This document shows, in pieces, positions 1,899 to 62,409 of a DNA stretch of 64,000 nt. A program made the position numbers and the translations under genes. Position 1 is the first letter of the stretch. Every line of letters starts with the position of its first letter. This DNA comes from Synergistaceae bacterium (lineage in GTDB: Bacteria > Synergistota > Synergistia > Synergistales > Thermovirgaceae). Below the pieces are notes generated by a model. The model was not told the DNA's origin. It saw only the letters and a list, made by a program, of their open reading frames with translations, and made no database searches. The stretch spans positions 1 to 64,000 of the forward strand of contig JAAYDT010000008.1 in the NCBI GenBank assembly GCA_012729145.1, given 5' to 3'.

Positions 1899-3895
1899 AG
1901 GTCCTTGTAGTTGATGACCGTGAAGACAACCTCTATCTGCTGGAAAGTCTTCTGGGCGGGAACGGTTTTGAAACAGATACGGCAAGGGAGGGACAAGAGG
2001 CCCTGGAAAAGGCGAGGAGAACCCCACCGGGACTAGTGATCAGCGACATCCTCATGCCCGGCATGGACGGGTTTGCGCTCTGCAGGGAGTGGAAAAAGGA
2101 CCCGATCCTGGAAAAGATACCTTTTGTCTTCTATACCTTCACCTACACCGACCCCCGGGACGAGCAGCTTGCCCTGGACATGGGAGCTGACCGTTTCATA
2201 CTTAAACCCGCAGAACCCGTGGATTTCATGAAGGTCATCAGAGATGTTCTGGCCCAATACGAGCACAATAACGGGATCCCTGCAAAAAAACCTATTGAGC
2301 CCGAGACAGTGGTATTGAAAGAGTACAACGAGGCACTGGTAAGAAAACTGGAGGATAAACTTGCCGACATAGAGTTACTGAATCAATCCCTGGATGAAAA
2401 AGACAAGAGACTCCTGCATATCAACCGGGTCCTCAGGGGGATCCGCGCGGTCAACCAGCTGATCGTCAAGGAGAGGGATAGAGACACCCTCACTCCGGAA
2501 GCATGCAGGAGGATAGTCGAAGGGAGCGGTTACGACGGGGCATGGATCATGCTGACCGGTCCCGGAAATGAACGGCTCAAATTTTCACAGGCAGGTTTCG
2601 AAGAAGAATCTTTCGAAAGTAGGACAGATCTGTTTTGTAAAGACGATCTTCCCCCCTGCTGTCGGAAATCCCTTGATGCGAAGGGACTGATCATCTCTCC
2701 GGCAGGATCGGACATTCACGAGGGCTGCCCCATGATATCCTTGTGTGGAATGGCCACATCCATGACGGCCCCCCTGACGCAAGAAGGTAAACTGTACGGG
2801 TTTCTCCTGGTTCTGCTCCCCCGGGATATAACAGCTGATGAAGAGGAAGTATCCCTCCTGAGTGAAATGGCCGGTGACCTGGCCTACAGTCTTGACAACA
2901 TCTCAATGGCTGAAGCCAGGCAGAGATCGGACGCTACCCTGCGGGCGACCTTCGATTCGGCCATCGACGGCATAATTCTTTACGATCCTGACGCCGACAG
3001 GCTTGTCCGCTTCAACAGGGCGATCAGCAAGATGCTTGGTTACTCTCCCGAGGAGATGGAACGCCTGAAAATGGAGAACATGCACCCTGCGGAAGACCTT
3101 CCCGGAATAATGGAAGACCTTAAAAACCAGATAAGCGGAGTAACACCCCTTGCCGTTAATATTCCTATGAAGAGAAAGGATGGATCGATCTTTTATGCCG
3201 ATGTAAACTCAAGTCCACTGGTCATTGACGGCAGGCTCCATGTCCTGGGGATCTTCAGGGATGTTTCCGGCATAAGGGATCTGAAGAAAAAAGAGAGGGA
3301 CGCCATAGAGAGGCTGCGGAGAGCTCTTGCGACGACCATCCACGTTCTCTCCCAGATACTGGAGAGAAGGGACCCTTATACCGCGGGTCACCAGAGAAGA
3401 GTGGCCGCCCTTGCAGGGGAGATAGCCCGGGAAATGGGTTTTGACCAGGAGCGAATTGACGGAATCATCATGACCGGGCAGGTCCATGACATTGGCAAGA
3501 TCTCCGTTCCTGCGGAGATACTGAGCAAGCCGGGCAAGATCTCTGAGATGGAACTTCGAATGATAAGAGAACACCCTATTCACGGGAGAGACATCCTGAA
3601 AGATGTCGACTCTCCCCTTCCTCTGTCTGATATCGTGTATCAGCACCACGAACGTCTGGACGGGTCCGGATATCCCAGGGGGATCAAGGGGGAGGAGATC
3701 CTCCTTGAAGCCCGCATTATCGCCGTAGCGGATGTGGTGGAGGCAATGGCAAGCCACAGGCCCTACAGGCCCTCCCACGGGATCGACGTTGCTCTTGATG
3801 AGATAGAAAGGAACCGGGGGGTCCTTTATGACGAAAAGGTAGTCGATGCTTGCGTTGAACTGTTCCGGCACAAGGGGTATGTTCTTCCTGACTGA
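1895..3895 (+). CDS. Response regulator with receiver, GAF, PAS and HD-GYP domains (c-di-GMP phosphodiesterase)
   Basis: Domain order in 666 residues: receiver 1-120 (D7-D8, phospho-acceptor Asp51, K104), a probable coiled coil at 140-180, a GAF-like domain about 190-340, PAS about 345-465, and an HD-GYP domain from about 480. The HD-GYP signature is complete: His499 in TAGH, HDIGK at 531-535, HH at 584-585 and GYP at 592-594. This predicts hydrolysis of cyclic di-GMP. The GAF-like part carries a cysteine cluster (C248, C255, C256, C278, C284) that could bind a metal, heme or Fe-S centre, or sense redox state; that is inference. As last gene of the operon it is the likely output, turning the periplasmic signal into a change in c-di-GMP. 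Confidence 0.92.
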   Translation: MKVLVVDDREDNLYLLESLLGGNGFETDTAREGQEALEKARRTPPGLVISDILMPGMDGFALCREWKKDPILEKIPFVFYTFTYTDPRDEQLALDMGADRFILKPAEPVDFMKVIRDVLAQYEHNNGIPAKKPIEPETVVLKEYNEALVRKLEDKLADIELLNQSLDEKDKRLLHINRVLRGIRAVNQLIVKERDRDTLTPEACRRIVEGSGYDGAWIMLTGPGNERLKFSQAGFEEESFESRTDLFCKDDLPPCCRKSLDAKGLIISPAGSDIHEGCPMISLCGMATSMTAPLTQEGKLYGFLLVLLPRDITADEEEVSLLSEMAGDLAYSLDNISMAEARQRSDATLRATFDSAIDGIILYDPDADRLVRFNRAISKMLGYSPEEMERLKMENMHPAEDLPGIMEDLKNQISGVTPLAVNIPMKRKDGSIFYADVNSSPLVIDGRLHVLGIFRDVSGIRDLKKKERDAIERLRRALATTIHVLSQILERRDPYTAGHQRRVAALAGEIAREMGFDQERIDGIIMTGQVHDIGKISVPAEILSKPGKISEMELRMIREHPIHGRDILKDVDSPLPLSDIVYQHHERLDGSGYPRGIKGEEILLEARIIAVADVVEAMASHRPYRPSHGIDVALDEIERNRGVLYDEKVVDACVELFRHKGYVLPD

Positions 3896-31408: not shown

Positions 31409-31534
31409 CTGGAATGACCTCCCGAAAGCCCTTTTGAAATGAACCATTCAGGCAAAAAGTTGACTTTAGCATACTTTGGGTCCTGGTGGAAGTCAACGGA
31501 GGCAGGAAACCTGAAGCAAGGCGTCAGGCGACAG

Positions 31535-31771
31535 GCAGCAGGCAGCAGGAAAGGCAGAAAACCCTTGAGGCGGGAGAACCAAATTCAAAGGCGTGAATGG
31601 TGAACGGTCAACGGTGAACAGAAGGGGTAAATGCCAAATCCTTTGCACCGCAGACGCTCTGCCCGTGATGGCGAACTGTCTTCGTAGGGTGTTGTCGCAG
31701 ATATGACCATAATATTTTGTGAGCGAAGTGAAGGATCTGGACTTTCGCTTTTCCCTACCGTTCACTGTTTA
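31535..31771. repeat. Heptanucleotide repeat cluster A (mosaic intergenic element)
   Basis: The 314-base gap 31448-31761 has no gene. At 31594-31621 four heptamers stand in tandem, of form TGAACGG. On the opposite strand two more (CCGTTCA, CTGTTTA; 31758-31771) run into the MATE gene, whose stop codon is within one of them. The cluster also has a CAGCAGG tandem (31535-31550) and a module GAAAACCCTTGAGGCGGGAG at 31557-31576 that recurs in cluster C. TTTGCACCGCAGA (31645 onward) resembles TTGCACCACAGAG of cluster D. Confidence 0.8.
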
Positions 31772-33147
31772 CGCTTTTGATCCTCTCCATTCTCCGATGA
31801 CAGTTCTATCCCAACTTTGATCTTGTCCATCACCTTGAATATGAAGTAGGTCGACAGGAGGAAGGAGACGAAGGCAGAGATCGGCTGGCACCACCAAACC
31901 CCGGAAAGACCGAAGGCCCTGGAGAGAATAGCTGCCGCCGGAATTCGGATCGCCAGGGTCCTCATTACCTGGGCGATCATTCCGTAAACTGGGTAACCGC
32001 TTCCCTGGAAGACACCCCAGAAAGAGATGTCCGCTGCTGCAAAAAGATAGGCCGTCGCCGAAGCCCTGATGGATGAGACGGCCATTCCCATAACCTGAGG
32101 CGAAGGTCTGAAGAGGGCAAGCACAAGATGGGGCCACATGTAGACCATGGCCCCGATAACGCCGATCATGACCGCCGAGGAGAGAAGGACCACTCTCAAC
32201 GCTCCGCGGACCCTGGGATAATCGCCTTTCCCGATGTTGTAGCCGATGAAGGGAATAAGAGCAGAGTTGAAGCCGAATACGGGGAGAAATACGAACATCT
32301 CTACCCTGTTGCCCAGCATGAAGGCACCTATGGCTGCAGGGCCATAGCCTGCGAGGATCCTGTTCAGCATTGCACCTCCGACGGCCATGCTGCCCTGGGA
32401 TATTGCCACTGGAAGACCGATCCTGCCTATGCTGATCCATCTGCCAGGGTGGTCGGGTCTCCAGGTTACGGCCGGAATGATCGCACTCCGTTCTTTGAGC
32501 CTCGACCACAGGTACAGGCATGAGGCCAGCCGGCCGATGAAGGTGGCTAGCGACGCACCGGCTATCCCCCATCCGAAGGTGAATATCAGAAGGGGGTCAA
32601 GCAGGACGTTGATCCCGTTGCCGAGGATCATGCTCTTCATGGGGGTCACCGTATCCCCCTGGCTCCTGAAGATGGAGTCGGCAACCAGGGAGAAGGACAT
32701 CAGCGGGGTTGCAAGGACCATCCAGAAAGCATAACGGTGGCTTTCGACGAGGACGTCTCCGGAACCGCCAAGGAGGGAGAAAAAGGCGTTTGAAGATCGA
32801 CGGAAAAGCAGGGGCATCACCAGTGTCGAAAGGACCAGGACAAGGACAAGAGCTGCGTCGGCATAGTCCCGGGCTTCACCTTGCTTCCCCTTGCCCAGGG
32901 AGTTGCTCATCCTGGTGGTGGCCCCCACGGCCATGCCGTTCACCAGGGCGAAGACAACGAAGACAAGGGGAAAGGAAAGTGACATGGCGGCCAGAGAGGA
33001 CTCCCCCAGCCATGATACGAAGACCGTATCGACCAGGTGGAACATGGTATGGAAGAGCATGGAGAACATCGAAGGCAAGGCAAGCTGCCAGAGTGTTCCG
33101 GCGACGCTCCCGGCGCCCATGTCCAGGTTCCTCTTGAGGATGGCCAT
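31762..33147 (-). CDS. MATE-family multidrug/sodium antiporter
   Basis: The 461-residue protein has about twelve membrane helices in two MatE halves, starting LALPSMFSMLFHTMFHLVDTVF and with a second half starting IGLPVAISQGSMAVGGAML. It belongs to the MATE exporters that expel cationic compounds using sodium or proton gradients; the DinF/NorM/MepA subgroup cannot be set by eye. GGAGGG precedes the ATG at 33147. The last codons (QKRKQ-stop) lie in the heptanucleotide repeat of cluster A, so the C-terminus has probably been altered by that element. Confidence 0.92.
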   Translation of the reverse strand: MAILKRNLDMGAGSVAGTLWQLALPSMFSMLFHTMFHLVDTVFVSWLGESSLAAMSLSFPLVFVVFALVNGMAVGATTRMSNSLGKGKQGEARDYADAALVLVLVLSTLVMPLLFRRSSNAFFSLLGGSGDVLVESHRYAFWMVLATPLMSFSLVADSIFRSQGDTVTPMKSMILGNGINVLLDPLLIFTFGWGIAGASLATFIGRLASCLYLWSRLKERSAIIPAVTWRPDHPGRWISIGRIGLPVAISQGSMAVGGAMLNRILAGYGPAAIGAFMLGNRVEMFVFLPVFGFNSALIPFIGYNIGKGDYPRVRGALRVVLLSSAVMIGVIGAMVYMWPHLVLALFRPSPQVMGMAVSSIRASATAYLFAAADISFWGVFQGSGYPVYGMIAQVMRTLAIRIPAAAILSRAFGLSGVWWCQPISAFVSFLLSTYFIFKVMDKIKVGIELSSENGEDQKRKQ

Positions 33148-44168: not shown

Positions 44169-44219
44169 GAAGATTCAGGAGGCGTGAGACCTGATCCGTA
44201 AACCCAAGAATAAAGGGTT

Positions 44220-44312
44220 TGAACGGTAAACAGCAAACGGGCCGAGAATCGCAAGCCGCAAAAAACAAAGGCGCGTAAACAGTTTTTCACCGTCTACTGT
44301 TTACGCGCCTTT
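44220..44312. repeat. Heptanucleotide repeat cluster B with a 17-bp inverted repeat
   Basis: The gap 44169-44353 holds three tandem heptamers at 44220-44240 (TGAACGG type). It also has a perfect inverted repeat: AAAGGCGCGTAAACAGT (44267-44283) and its complement at 44296-44312, separated by 12 bases. The right arm and loop, ACCGTCTACTGTTTACGC, match ACCGTTCACTGTTTACGC of cluster A with two differences. The hairpin ends in TTT and lies between the convergent trkH and LUD genes, so it may also terminate transcription in either direction. Confidence 0.75.
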
Positions 44313-45452: not shown

Positions 45453-45502
45453 GTTGGGATCGGGTAAGGCCTGGATCGTAACGGGAGACGCATGACTAGT
45501 AG

Positions 45503-45599
45503 ATCGTGAATCGTAAATCGTGCATCGTGAAGCAACCCGGGAGACATGCGAGACGCAGCAGGAGACAGGGAGGGCCGAAACCCTTGAAACGCGGGAGAA
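45503..45599 (+). repeat. Heptanucleotide repeat cluster C
   Basis: Four tandem heptamers of form ATCGTGA (equivalent to TGAATCG) stand at 45503-45530. They are followed by a CAGCAGG stretch (45556-45562) and the module GAAACCCTTGAAACGCGGGA (45577-45596), which matches the module of cluster A with a small insertion and a few changes. The whole 310-base gap 45453-45762 otherwise holds the terminator, palindrome and promoter of the ylxM operon. Confidence 0.8.
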
Positions 45600-59618: not shown

Positions 59619-59975
59619 ATGAGGCTGGAGAAGCGCTCAACGATAGCTGTTTTTCTGGCAGTCATGGTCCTTTTCAATCTTGCCTGCCAGAGTTTCGTTA
59701 TGGCGGCAAATGCCTGGAGGGTGGATGTCTCTGAAGAGGCCATCGGGGGCTTCGGAAGGTTTATGGAGTTCGCCAGAGGTCTCTTCCGATCTGCCGAAGA
59801 GGATGGGGCTTCGGAAGGGTCGGGAAGCGAAAAGGCCTTTTCGACGAACCCCTTCGTCTATATCGCGGCCTTCTGGACAGAGATTGTGAACGCGCCAGAA
59901 GAAAGGTCTTTTTGGGAAAGGATCATAGCCTTTCTTGAGGCGGTAAAGGTGAAGGGACGGGGAATGATCATGTAA
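59619..59975 (+). CDS. Small secreted orphan protein
   Basis: I do not recognise a family. The 118-residue product has a signal peptide (AVFLAVMVLFNLACQSFVMAA); the cysteine at position 24 is in a poor lipobox context. The mature part is amphipathic and rich in Phe, Trp and Glu, with a Ser/Gly/Glu linker. GGGGGGAGATGG precedes the ATG. The TAA stop codon coincides with the first heptamer of repeat cluster D, so the natural C-terminus may once have been different. Confidence 0.6.
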   Translation: MRLEKRSTIAVFLAVMVLFNLACQSFVMAANAWRVDVSEEAIGGFGRFMEFARGLFRSAEEDGASEGSGSEKAFSTNPFVYIAAFWTEIVNAPEERSFWERIIAFLEAVKVKGRGMIM

Positions 59976-60226
59976 CTCGTGACTCGTGACGGGTGAAATC
60001 CGTAAACCGTGAATCGTGAACCGAAAAACAGATCTTGCACCACAGAGAAAACAAGGTCACTATTGGGCAGAGTCTGGATCGTTGATCTTTTCTTGCCTTT
60101 TCCGTTCACCGTTCACTGTTTGCCGTTCACGCAGTTTACCCTTCGAGCATTGACCTTGGTTCAAACATTACGATTAACGACTCACGGTTCACGATTGACG
60201 GATCAAGATTTCCGATTCACAGATCA
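59973..60226. repeat. Heptanucleotide repeat cluster D (largest)
   Basis: Three arrays share one 7-base phase each. At 59973-60023 there are seven units (one of 9 bases) of form TGAATCG on the plus strand. At 60102-60129 there are four of form CCGTTCA. At 60171-60226 there are eight of form CGATTCA, the reverse complement. AATCGTGAACCG (60012-60023) and CGGTTCACGATT (60185-60196) are a perfect 12-bp inverted pair. Between lies TTGCACCACAGAG (60035-60047). The 294-base gap 59976-60269 is almost wholly this element. Confidence 0.9.
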
Positions 60227-60269
60227 CGGTCTTGTAAAAACGGTCCACTAAACGAAAGGAGGTCTCGCA

Positions 60270-60590
60270 ATGAAGGAAAAGTTCGAGAACGTTACTCTTG
60301 TAAGCAAGGCCAATGTCTATCTTGACGGCAAGGTGACCAGCAGGACCTTCTTCCTCCCCTCGGGAGAGAGGAAGACGGCGGGCATCTTCCTGCCCGGAGA
60401 GTACGAGTTCGGAACTAACGAGGCTGAAATAATGGATGTCGTTCAGGGTAGTGCGGAGGTACTGCTCCCCGGAGAGACGGAATGGAAAAAGTTCGGTCCC
60501 GGTGAGTGCTTCAGGATTCCTTCAAAGAGCTCCTTTAAACTAAAGATCGGGGAAGTTCTCGACTATATCTGCTCATACATCAAGGAGTGA
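60270..60590 (+). CDS. ppnP: Pyrimidine/purine nucleoside phosphorylase PpnP
   Basis: The 106-residue single-domain cupin matches PpnP (DUF1255, YaiE) with VYLDGKVTSRTFFLPSGE, KTAGIFLPGEYEFGT and EIMDVVQGSAEVLLPG. It cleaves several nucleosides with phosphate. AAAGGAGG gives a strong ribosome-binding site. Repeat cluster D directly precedes it, so its promoter is either within the repeats or upstream. Confidence 0.92.
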   Translation: MKEKFENVTLVSKANVYLDGKVTSRTFFLPSGERKTAGIFLPGEYEFGTNEAEIMDVVQGSAEVLLPGETEWKKFGPGECFRIPSKSSFKLKIGEVLDYICSYIKE

Positions 60591-60883: not shown

Positions 60884-61036
60884 CGGTCTACCCCTTCCCG
60901 GGAGGAGTCTTTCTCCTTCCAATATTGCAGAGGCTATCCTTTCAGGGAAGACCGTGTCAAGGGCGACCTGTCGGGATGCCTTATTCGGGAGGATCCCCTG
61001 GGCGAAGATGTGATGGAAGGTGAGAAGAAAAACCCG

Positions 61037-61075
61037 TGAATCATAAATCGTGATTCGTGGATCGTGAACCGAAAA
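61037..61075 (+). repeat. Heptanucleotide repeat cluster E
   Basis: Five tandem heptamers at 61037-61071 (TGAATCA to TGAACCG) continue as AAAA. The string ATCGTGAACCGAAAA (61061-61075) also occurs in cluster D at 60013-60027. The cluster lies between the small membrane protein and the 3' end of the MFS gene. Confidence 0.85.
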
Positions 61076-61107
61076 GGCTGAAAAAGAAAGCGGCAGGAAG
61101 GACAGGA

Positions 61108-62409
61108 TCAAGCGCGTACCCTGTCGCTGCGCTTGGGGCTCCCGTCATCATTCCCTGCCTCGTTCATCCCCTTGTCGACATCCACCTTGCGGAGCAGGAA
61201 GATCCCTCCTGCGAAGAAAAGGATCAGGGAGACTATCCCCATACGGGTGGAGCCGGTGAGTTGCGTCAGAACCGCAAAAAGGGCAGGTCCGGCCACTCCC
61301 GAGAATTTGCTGAATATGTCGTAAAGGGCGAAGAACTCCCCCGTCCTTGCCCGGGGGACCATTACGCCGTAAGTGCTCCGGCTGATGGCCTGGACACCTC
61401 CCTGGACCATTCCTACAGCAATGGCCAGGACCCAGAAGTGCCATGCCCTTTCCAGGAAGAAGGCGCCGAAAGAAATGACACCGTACCATATCAGCCCTAT
61501 GGTTATTGCCGCCTTGCCCCCCACCCTTAGGGAGAGTTTCCCGAAGAGGATGGAGAAGGGGGCTCCGACGAACTGGGTGGCGAGAAGGGCCCCAACGAGG
61601 TGCAGCATCCCTATACCTTTCTCGGCACCGTAGATGGCGGCCATCTTCATTATCGTGCCGACGCCGTCGTTATAAAGCCAGAAAGCGACCAGGAAAACCA
61701 GTAATTCCCGGTAGCGCCTGATGTTCCTCAGGGTCTCCGCCAGTTGACCGAACCCCCGGGTAAGTACGTGCCCCCCTTCAACTGCACCATTGACCTCGAC
61801 AACCGGCTCCGGGACAAGGACCATCAAGGGTATCGTGAAGGTGATCCACCACAGCCCGACGGACAGGAAAGACAATCTTGCTCCAAGGCCTCCCGGGAGA
61901 AGAACCACCGCTGCAATGTTGGCGGCAAGTAGTGCGCCTCCCCCAAGATATCCCCATGCGTACCCTCTGGACGATATCTCGTCGATCCTGCCATGGGGGG
62001 CGATGTGGGGGAGAAGAGAGTCGTAGAAGATCATGGACAGGGAAAACCCCAGGCTTCCAAGGGCGTAAAGAGCCAGTGCCCTCATCCAGTCGCCGTATCC
62101 GACGGTGAAAAGGAAACCCGTAGAAACTGCCCCCAGGAGCGTGAAGACAAGCAGGAACCGTTTCTTCAGTCCCCCTATGTCAGCCATGCTCCCAAGGACC
62201 GGAGCCAATGAAGCCCCTATCAGAAGAGCAAGGGATGATGTGTACCCCCAAAGGGCAGCTGGGGAGTTGGGTGCCAGTCCGGCAGCTGCCACCTCCCTGA
62301 AGTACACGGGCAGGAGGGCCGCCATTATGGTGGTCGCGAAGGCAGAATTCCCGGCATCATAGAGGCACCAGGCCTTTACCTGTTTCTCTTTGCAGCTGTC
62401 AGATCTCAT
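61108..62409 (-). CDS. UMF1/Atg22-type MFS transporter
   Basis: The ~433-residue protein has twelve helices with WCLYDAGNSAFATTIMAALLP at the start (read as WCLYDAGNSAF then ATTIMAALLP), and YNDGVGTIMKMAAIYGAE in the second half, the UMF1 signature. Family members include Atg22, a vacuolar amino-acid exporter in yeast; bacterial roles are unclear. ATG 62409 gives the conserved N-terminus; the frame continues upstream into the promoter region of the divergent DAK2-DegV gene. The last residues are charged and variable, next to repeat cluster E. Confidence 0.88.
   Translation of the reverse strand: MRSDSCKEKQVKAWCLYDAGNSAFATTIMAALLPVYFREVAAAGLAPNSPAALWGYTSSLALLIGASLAPVLGSMADIGGLKKRFLLVFTLLGAVSTGFLFTVGYGDWMRALALYALGSLGFSLSMIFYDSLLPHIAPHGRIDEISSRGYAWGYLGGGALLAANIAAVVLLPGGLGARLSFLSVGLWWITFTIPLMVLVPEPVVEVNGAVEGGHVLTRGFGQLAETLRNIRRYRELLVFLVAFWLYNDGVGTIMKMAAIYGAEKGIGMLHLVGALLATQFVGAPFSILFGKLSLRVGGKAAITIGLIWYGVISFGAFFLERAWHFWVLAIAVGMVQGGVQAISRSTYGVMVPRARTGEFFALYDIFSKFSGVAGPALFAVLTQLTGSTRMGIVSLILFFAGGIFLLRKVDVDKGMNEAGNDDGSPKRSDRVRA

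Follow-up and report, generated by a model that had tools for sequence, protein, structure and literature searches.

The heptad locus upstream of ppnP

The window, by which we mean the whole stretch of 64,000 nucleotides that was analysed, carries near its right end a gene for a protein of 118 amino acids followed by ppnP, and between these two genes tandem heptanucleotide repeats are present on both strands (cluster D, Table 1). The arrays in the window were delimited with a two-strand HMM built as a seven-state cycle and trained on arrays of the window's own genome (G000; G001–G003 belong to the same genus and G004–G009 to the same family). A first-pass annotation of this DNA had described arrays with a strict 7-base phase at 59973–60226 on both strands. 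These arrays are real and their period of 7 is held, but the phase is not strict, as the HMM has to change phase once in the forward array and three times in the reverse block. The forward array reads GTAACTC GTGACTC GTGACGG GTGAAATCC GTAAACC GTGAATC GTGAACC with one of its seven units being 9 bases long, and its first heptad overlaps the upstream gene's stop codon (TAA). The reverse block includes the four-unit run GTGAACG GCAAACA GTGAACG GTGAACG together with a longer run, and ppnP begins 39 bp 3' of the arrays. The position weight matrix of the heptads starts with G (.94), T (.91), R (.86) and A (.97), followed by A (.81) and two variable positions. The 12-bp inverted pair noted in the first annotation proved to be exact on direct reading (AATCGTGAACCG and CGGTTCACGATT), and the folding check suggested there turned out positive, with either strand of cluster D predicted to fold better than shuffled sequences (z -2.2 and -2.1). 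No intrinsic terminator was called at cluster D, the sigma-70 scan gave no call at the promoter-like stretch at 60150–60164, and a search against Rfam returned a tRNA as the sole match in the window and no relevant match at nine array loci. In G004, G005 and G008 the ppnP orthologs are also preceded by heptads.

Table 1: Coordinates of the heptad arrays and neighbouring features in the window, with the basis of each assignment.
Feature	Positions	Strand	Basis
Left arm of another facing pair, GTGAACG type; missing in G001, G003 and G008	31592–31621	+	HMM, 37.3 bits
Right arm of the 31.6-kb pair, at the 3' terminus of a gene encoding a MatE transporter	31756–31777	-	HMM, 27.7 bits; Pfam
Single array, GTGAATC type; orthologous gap of G003 without array	45475–45531	+	HMM, 40.9 bits
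Gene preceding cluster D (118 aa, without Pfam match); G004, G005 and G008 have a related neighbour in this position	59619–59975	+	
Left arm of cluster D, seven heptads, GTRACTC type then GTRAAYC type, ending in GAAAA; lies over the upstream stop codon	59972–60027	+	HMM, 60.6 bits
Left half of exact 12-bp inverted pair, AATCGTGAACCG	60012–60023	+	Direct reading; paired in predicted fold
Spacer (loop) between the arms, non-periodic; missing in G004, where the arms abut	60028–60097		HMM and comparison with G004
Right arm of cluster D, inverted; GTRAACG-type heptads on the loop side, GTRAAYC type outside	60098–60230	-	HMM, 109.4 bits
TTGACCTTGGTTCAA, non-repeat imperfect palindrome or promoter-like stretch within the right arm; kept in G004	60150–60164	+	Sequence comparison; no sigma-70 scan call
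Right half of exact 12-bp inverted pair	60185–60196	-	Direct reading; paired in predicted fold
ppnP, pyrimidine/purine nucleoside phosphorylase, 3' of the arrays	60270–60590	+	Pfam PF06865, 2.5e-34
Second array, 3' of ppnP, GTGAATC type	61031–61082	+	HMM, 42.6 bits

Beyond cluster D the window holds three array loci (31592–31777, 45475–45531 and 61031–61082). Families with a period of 7 but without GTRA units, for example of the CAGGCAG/TCAGGCC and ACGTCTC types, also occur in G000 (window 31512–31555; loci L048 and L061). At 44190–44310 of the window a degenerate, terminator-like hairpin GGCGCGTAAACAG...CTGTTTACGCGCCTTTAT is found, and the corresponding site of G003 carries full arrays. Recurrent intergenic phrases around CACAGAG or CACCGCAGAG lie beside the arrays at 60028–60075 and at many other array loci.

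Abundance, placement and distribution

To the window and the adjoining 18 kb we added 20 further stretches of G000 chosen without regard to repeats, resulting in a sample of 482 kb in which genes were called with a simple custom hexamer scorer and not with a standard gene finder. Its 38 kb of intergenic DNA contain 24 period-7 segments and its 443 kb of coding sequence 2, and none was found in shuffled intergenic sequence. From the other periods only 14 stands out, and none but multiples of 7 exceeds 2 segments in the intergenic DNA. In the 82 kb made up of the window and the adjoining 18 kb we counted 7 such segments versus 0.3 in order-2 Markov resamples, and a search of G000 with the heptad pattern gave 76 matches and none with the reversed pattern. 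The excess that the first-pass annotation had made the test of its claim is thus present, and its view that neither chance nor base composition explains the arrays is borne out by the shuffles, the resamples and the reversed-pattern controls. A coding origin, which it had also doubted, is rejected as the arrays avoid genes. All of the 21 array clusters in the sample, 17 of them outside the window, are intergenic, except where arrays overlap the ends of genes and for a single ORF call that is doubtful. Many arrays begin no farther than about 35 bp from a stop codon. Single arrays read away from the nearer ORF in 10 of 13 cases, and 2 of 18 cases lie between divergent genes versus about 23% expected by length, both counts being small numbers.

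The pattern GTRAAYSGTRAAYSGTRAA, counted with at most one mismatch and with a reversed-pattern control of 0 in all ten family genomes, gave 63 matches in G000, 6, 40 and 136 in G001, G002 and G003 of the same genus, and 134, 127 and 128 in G004, G005 and G008 of the same family. In G006, G007 and G009, also of this family, no match was found at this stringency, and in 31 kb of intergenic DNA from G006 there is 1 period-7 segment. Across 121 genomes from this phylum, seven contain exact matches, and five of these belong to the window's own family. A longer pattern matched at least 118 stretches in named genomes from many phyla, with Acidobacteria, Chloroflexi, Bacteroidetes, Deltaproteobacteria, Gemmatimonadetes, Cyanobacteria and others among the matches listed and the cultivated Terrimonas and Mesorhizobium among the matching genomes. 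Whole-genome counts for 18 such genomes reach 195 in a member of the Pyrinomonadaceae (G061), 365 in Desulfobacterales HSG2 and 137 in Caldilineales, the controls being 0 or close to it, and as these genomes were picked because they match, the counts describe breadth and not frequency. Viral sequences gave only 66 matching stretches among 2.9 million contigs. On the G000 contigs C15, C19, C53, C59, C73, C78 and C114 several arrays are found not more than a few hundred bases from the contig ends, which suggests that the repeats break the assembly.

Facing arms and their turnover

The forward and reverse arrays, treated as separate features in the first annotation, are instead two arms of one inward-facing pair with the layout (GTRANNN)n ... 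(NNNTYAC)n. Among neighbouring arrays of G000 not more than 300 bp apart a forward array followed by a reverse one was observed 15 times versus 0 times for the opposite order, and with all sets pooled 67 pairs are facing versus 6 back-to-back (p 4e-14). The signal on the opposite strand within 150 bp was stronger on the inward than on the outward side in three sets (32:16, 46:9 and 139:56). A detector that does not depend on the unit found 84 inverted heptad pairs versus 32 direct ones, and G outnumbers C on the inward-reading strand of 77 inverted pairs, whatever their unit, versus 5 in which C outnumbers G. As most loci in this count had been retrieved by the GTRA pattern, the inverted pairs without GTRA units, with 13 showing more G than C on the inward strand versus 2, provide the cleaner, albeit small, figure. 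Judged by eye, the arms in G000 are built from modules with GTRACTC or GTGAGAC outside, followed by GTRAAYC, a linker such as GGAAGATCAAAAGGC and GTRAACG next to the loop. The acidobacterium G061 follows the same plan in a far more regular form in which four GTGACRR units, a linker and GTRAATC units ending with GTRAATA succeed each other. There, all 19 of 19 pairs are facing, 13 of 17 outer modules consist of four units, and four is also the mode of the inner module.

Inside the arrays the similarity of units drops with distance (5.03, 4.83, 4.49 and 3.95 of 7 positions), so that adjacent units are most alike. At the ppnP locus G004 has the same array core as G000 with additional whole units and without the 70-bp spacer. 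Between genera this locus shows 94% identity over 52 bp as well as over a hand-delimited stretch of 84 bp, compared to 55% at third codon positions of ppnP. Since the conserved segments consist in part of the non-repeat promoter-like palindrome, the constraint may act on a regulatory region and not on the heptads themselves. G000, G002 and G004 carry the 31.6-kb pair, which is missing from the orthologous gaps of G001, G003 and G008, and at other orthologous sites arrays are present in G000 but not in G003 or vice versa. Separate loci have array-bearing or adjoining segments in common (83–89 bp at 99% and 106–113 bp at 89–90% identity).

Pairing between the arms was compared within loci and after swapping. 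Arms from the same locus pair better in G001–G003 (three genomes pooled, p 0.006), and within-locus pairing is strong in G061, where 0 of 20,000 permutations was as good. In G000 complementarity is not higher between arms of the same locus than between those of different loci (p 0.58), and compensatory stem evolution was looked for in this genome and not seen. Differences between arms of the G-A and A-G kind are about equally common (33 vs 29).

Relation to known repeats and possible origin

The first-pass annotation knew heptameric repeats from cyanobacteria and none from this kind of genome. The STRRs of Calothrix, cited in PMC4692102, are cyanobacterial heptamers, and a published class of this kind exists (PMC4692102, PMC2700814, PMC4679880). 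GGGNATC and GGGGAYT heptamer repeats occur in Xanthomonas and Nostoc, and Xanthomonas carries heterogeneous GGGANTN heptamers in 70–75 convergent pairs per genome which are intergenic, near ORF ends, rarely between divergent genes and variable between relatives (Rehm et al. 2015, PMC4692102). Our GTRANNN arrays are the same kind of repeat with a different unit. They share the heterogeneous 7-base tandem units with four conserved first bases, the intergenic location in many copies, the convergent pairs near the end of an adjoining ORF, the strong variation in length and sequence among relatives and a G-rich strand that reads inward (here 67:6 and 77:5). In contrast, they have no GGG runs, occur in other phyla and form nested modules that mix unit families. 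Four units are commonest in Xanthomonas, a number taken there as a sign of quadruplexes (PMC4692102). For GTRANNN units a G-quadruplex is ruled out as G-runs are lacking, and because the other features of the Xanthomonas repeats are found here or in the acidobacterium, with small numbers behind the count between divergent genes, quadruplex formation cannot be the general cause. Geobacter metallireducens has heptanucleotide elements with four GGGACCG units and class-3 sites of five MTYCTGA units (Aklujkar et al. 2009, PMC2700814). They are also tandem, dispersed in many copies and, for class 3, displayed as opposite-strand pairs, but they have other units, are classed as predicted regulatory sites and, in the case of GGGACCG, also lie within genes, unlike here. 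The TAACTGA direct repeats of Beggiatoaceae (MacGregor 2015, PMC4679880) are likewise intergenic heptamers in many copies with a patchy phylogenetic spread, whereas they have one fixed unit with rare near variants, are nearly all direct and mostly lie just 5' of start codons. No published description of a GTGAATC-type unit was found in our literature search.

Inward-facing arms between genes are present in dozens of copies in G000 and are present or absent at orthologous sites, the arrays change by whole 7-base units, and the same architecture and orientation rule recur across many phyla. We therefore consider cluster D, with a probability of about one half, to be one copy of a dispersed, non-coding, hairpin-type heptad element that is mostly neutral or selfish and locally co-opted. 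Such copies would spread as, or together with, short inverted-repeat DNA tolerated only between genes, and their arms would lengthen and shorten through 7-base slippage, while in some genomes the arms may be kept alike by hairpin-based exchange or by selection on the stem. Most copies would be neutral or mildly selfish intergenic DNA and some may have been co-opted, as suggested by the arms and the promoter-like stretch 5' of ppnP that are conserved between genera. Against this stands that we found neither element boundaries nor a target-site duplication nor an autonomous copy, so that we infer mobility solely from copy number, shared segments and presence or absence. Inverted arms are present as in a MITE, but no duplication was recognised in the few empty-site comparisons and the spacers, with 20–238 bp and widely differing sequences, are unlike those of an ordinary MITE. 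The lack of arm-to-arm coupling in G000 also speaks against it, as do the G000 arrays without a strong partner, whose weak opposite signal is not inward-biased (11:16).

Pure replication slippage, in which heptanucleotide microsatellites arise in place by a polymerase slipping 7 bases and are never copied to new sites, would account for the resemblance of adjacent units, for the differing unit number at the orthologous ppnP locus and for several unrelated unit families within one genome, and a polymerase-footprint origin has been proposed for the heptamer excess (discussion of PMC4692102). As it predicts neither facing pairs with a single polarity and a G-rich inward strand, nor modules of modally four units joined by a linker in the acidobacterium, nor linkers and flanks common to separate loci, we regard it as unlikely. 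Somewhat less probable still are RNA-level stem-loops under selection, either as terminator-like hairpins at 3' ends or as regulatory RNA structure. The fold of cluster D, the better pairing of same-locus arms in G001–G003 and the acidobacterium and the many array starts close to stop codons agree with them, but arm coupling is missing in G000, loops extend up to 238 nt, no terminator was called at cluster D, G-A and A-G differences are about equal, and the Xanthomonas repeats are transcribed although a regulatory role was not found (Rehm 2015, PMC4692102). The first-pass annotation had also considered a protein-binding array. Sites for a specific protein, be it a regulator or a chromosome-organising factor, would be compatible with the conserved segments 5' of ppnP and the preferred unit number in one genome. 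As unit types vary within one genome and between genera, this idea is unsupported, and with presence not conserved at several compared sites and G006, G007 and G009 of the same family being without arrays, we consider it improbable.

For the dispersed element itself we searched for copying enzymes. A search for proteins with RVT_1 domain had 0 matches in the ten family genomes while the positive controls gave matches, and copying by a reverse transcriptase of retron or DGR type was rejected there. A Y1_Tnp protein, usually of the 280–330 aa type, is encoded in all ten family genomes including the array-free G006, G007 and G009, and arrays were near 0 of 14 Y1 loci examined. Among the 18 array-bearing genomes of other groups no Y1_Tnp match was found in G061, G063, G064, G066, G074 and G077, each with at least 20 array matches, and likewise in G069 with 5. 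Draft genomes could miss such genes, yet that many chance misses are unlikely. Furthermore, Y1_Tnp is encoded in 12 of 30 additional genomes from the phylum that had been selected for zero array matches, showing that the gene does not track the arrays. The copying enzyme is not an RVT_1-family reverse transcriptase in the lineage studied here, nor is it, as a general rule, a Y1/RAYT transposase. The arrays resemble REP/REPIN elements, which a Y1 (RAYT) transposase mobilises, in their short facing inverted pairs, their intergenic location and their many copies, and every tested family genome has a Y1_Tnp protein. This reading is very improbable and as a general mechanism largely refuted by the 0 of 14 flanked loci, by the gene in array-free G007 and G009 and by the lack of a match in six genomes from other phyla that are rich in arrays, among them G061 (195 matches), the most regular one. 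Also in structure the arrays differ from REP/BIME/REPIN sequences as the arms are tandem heptads and not one palindrome, with GTRA recurring every 7 bases in place of a short palindrome with a 5' GTRG-type tetranucleotide, and as a RAYT link is lacking. In three genomes (loci L243, L245 and L249) a Y1_Tnp gene of about 285–316 aa has the same neighbour, which suggests vertical inheritance.

Heptamer repeats have been reported piecemeal, as G-quadruplexes in Xanthomonas, translational control in Beggiatoaceae and regulator sites in Geobacter. The units described here are incapable of quadruplexes and share the intergenic placement and convergent pairing, and one acidobacterium shows the same four-unit preference that was once read as a quadruplex sign. 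One polarity rule across phyla and unrelated units points to a common generating process which can now be searched for directly. We tentatively propose, although we hold it to be rather doubtful, a cross-phylum class of hairpins defined by a 7-base period, a G-rich strand that reads inward and a preference for modules of four units. Such a class would depend neither on the unit sequence nor on quadruplexes and would be produced by a so far undescribed machinery that copies in 7-base steps.

Two further repeats accompany the arrays. A spacer cassette GGGAGCTTTACCGGGAACA..., for which Rfam gave no match, is common to several loci between or near facing arrays (L045, 274–371; L061, 4796–4892; L196, about 3000–3230) and is also present in G004. 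The recurrent word CCCTGTCGCTGCGCTTGGGGCACCTT, often located between GTRACTC heptads (window 61119–61144; L040, L050, L055, L065, L067 and L257), looks like a separate short dispersed repeat.
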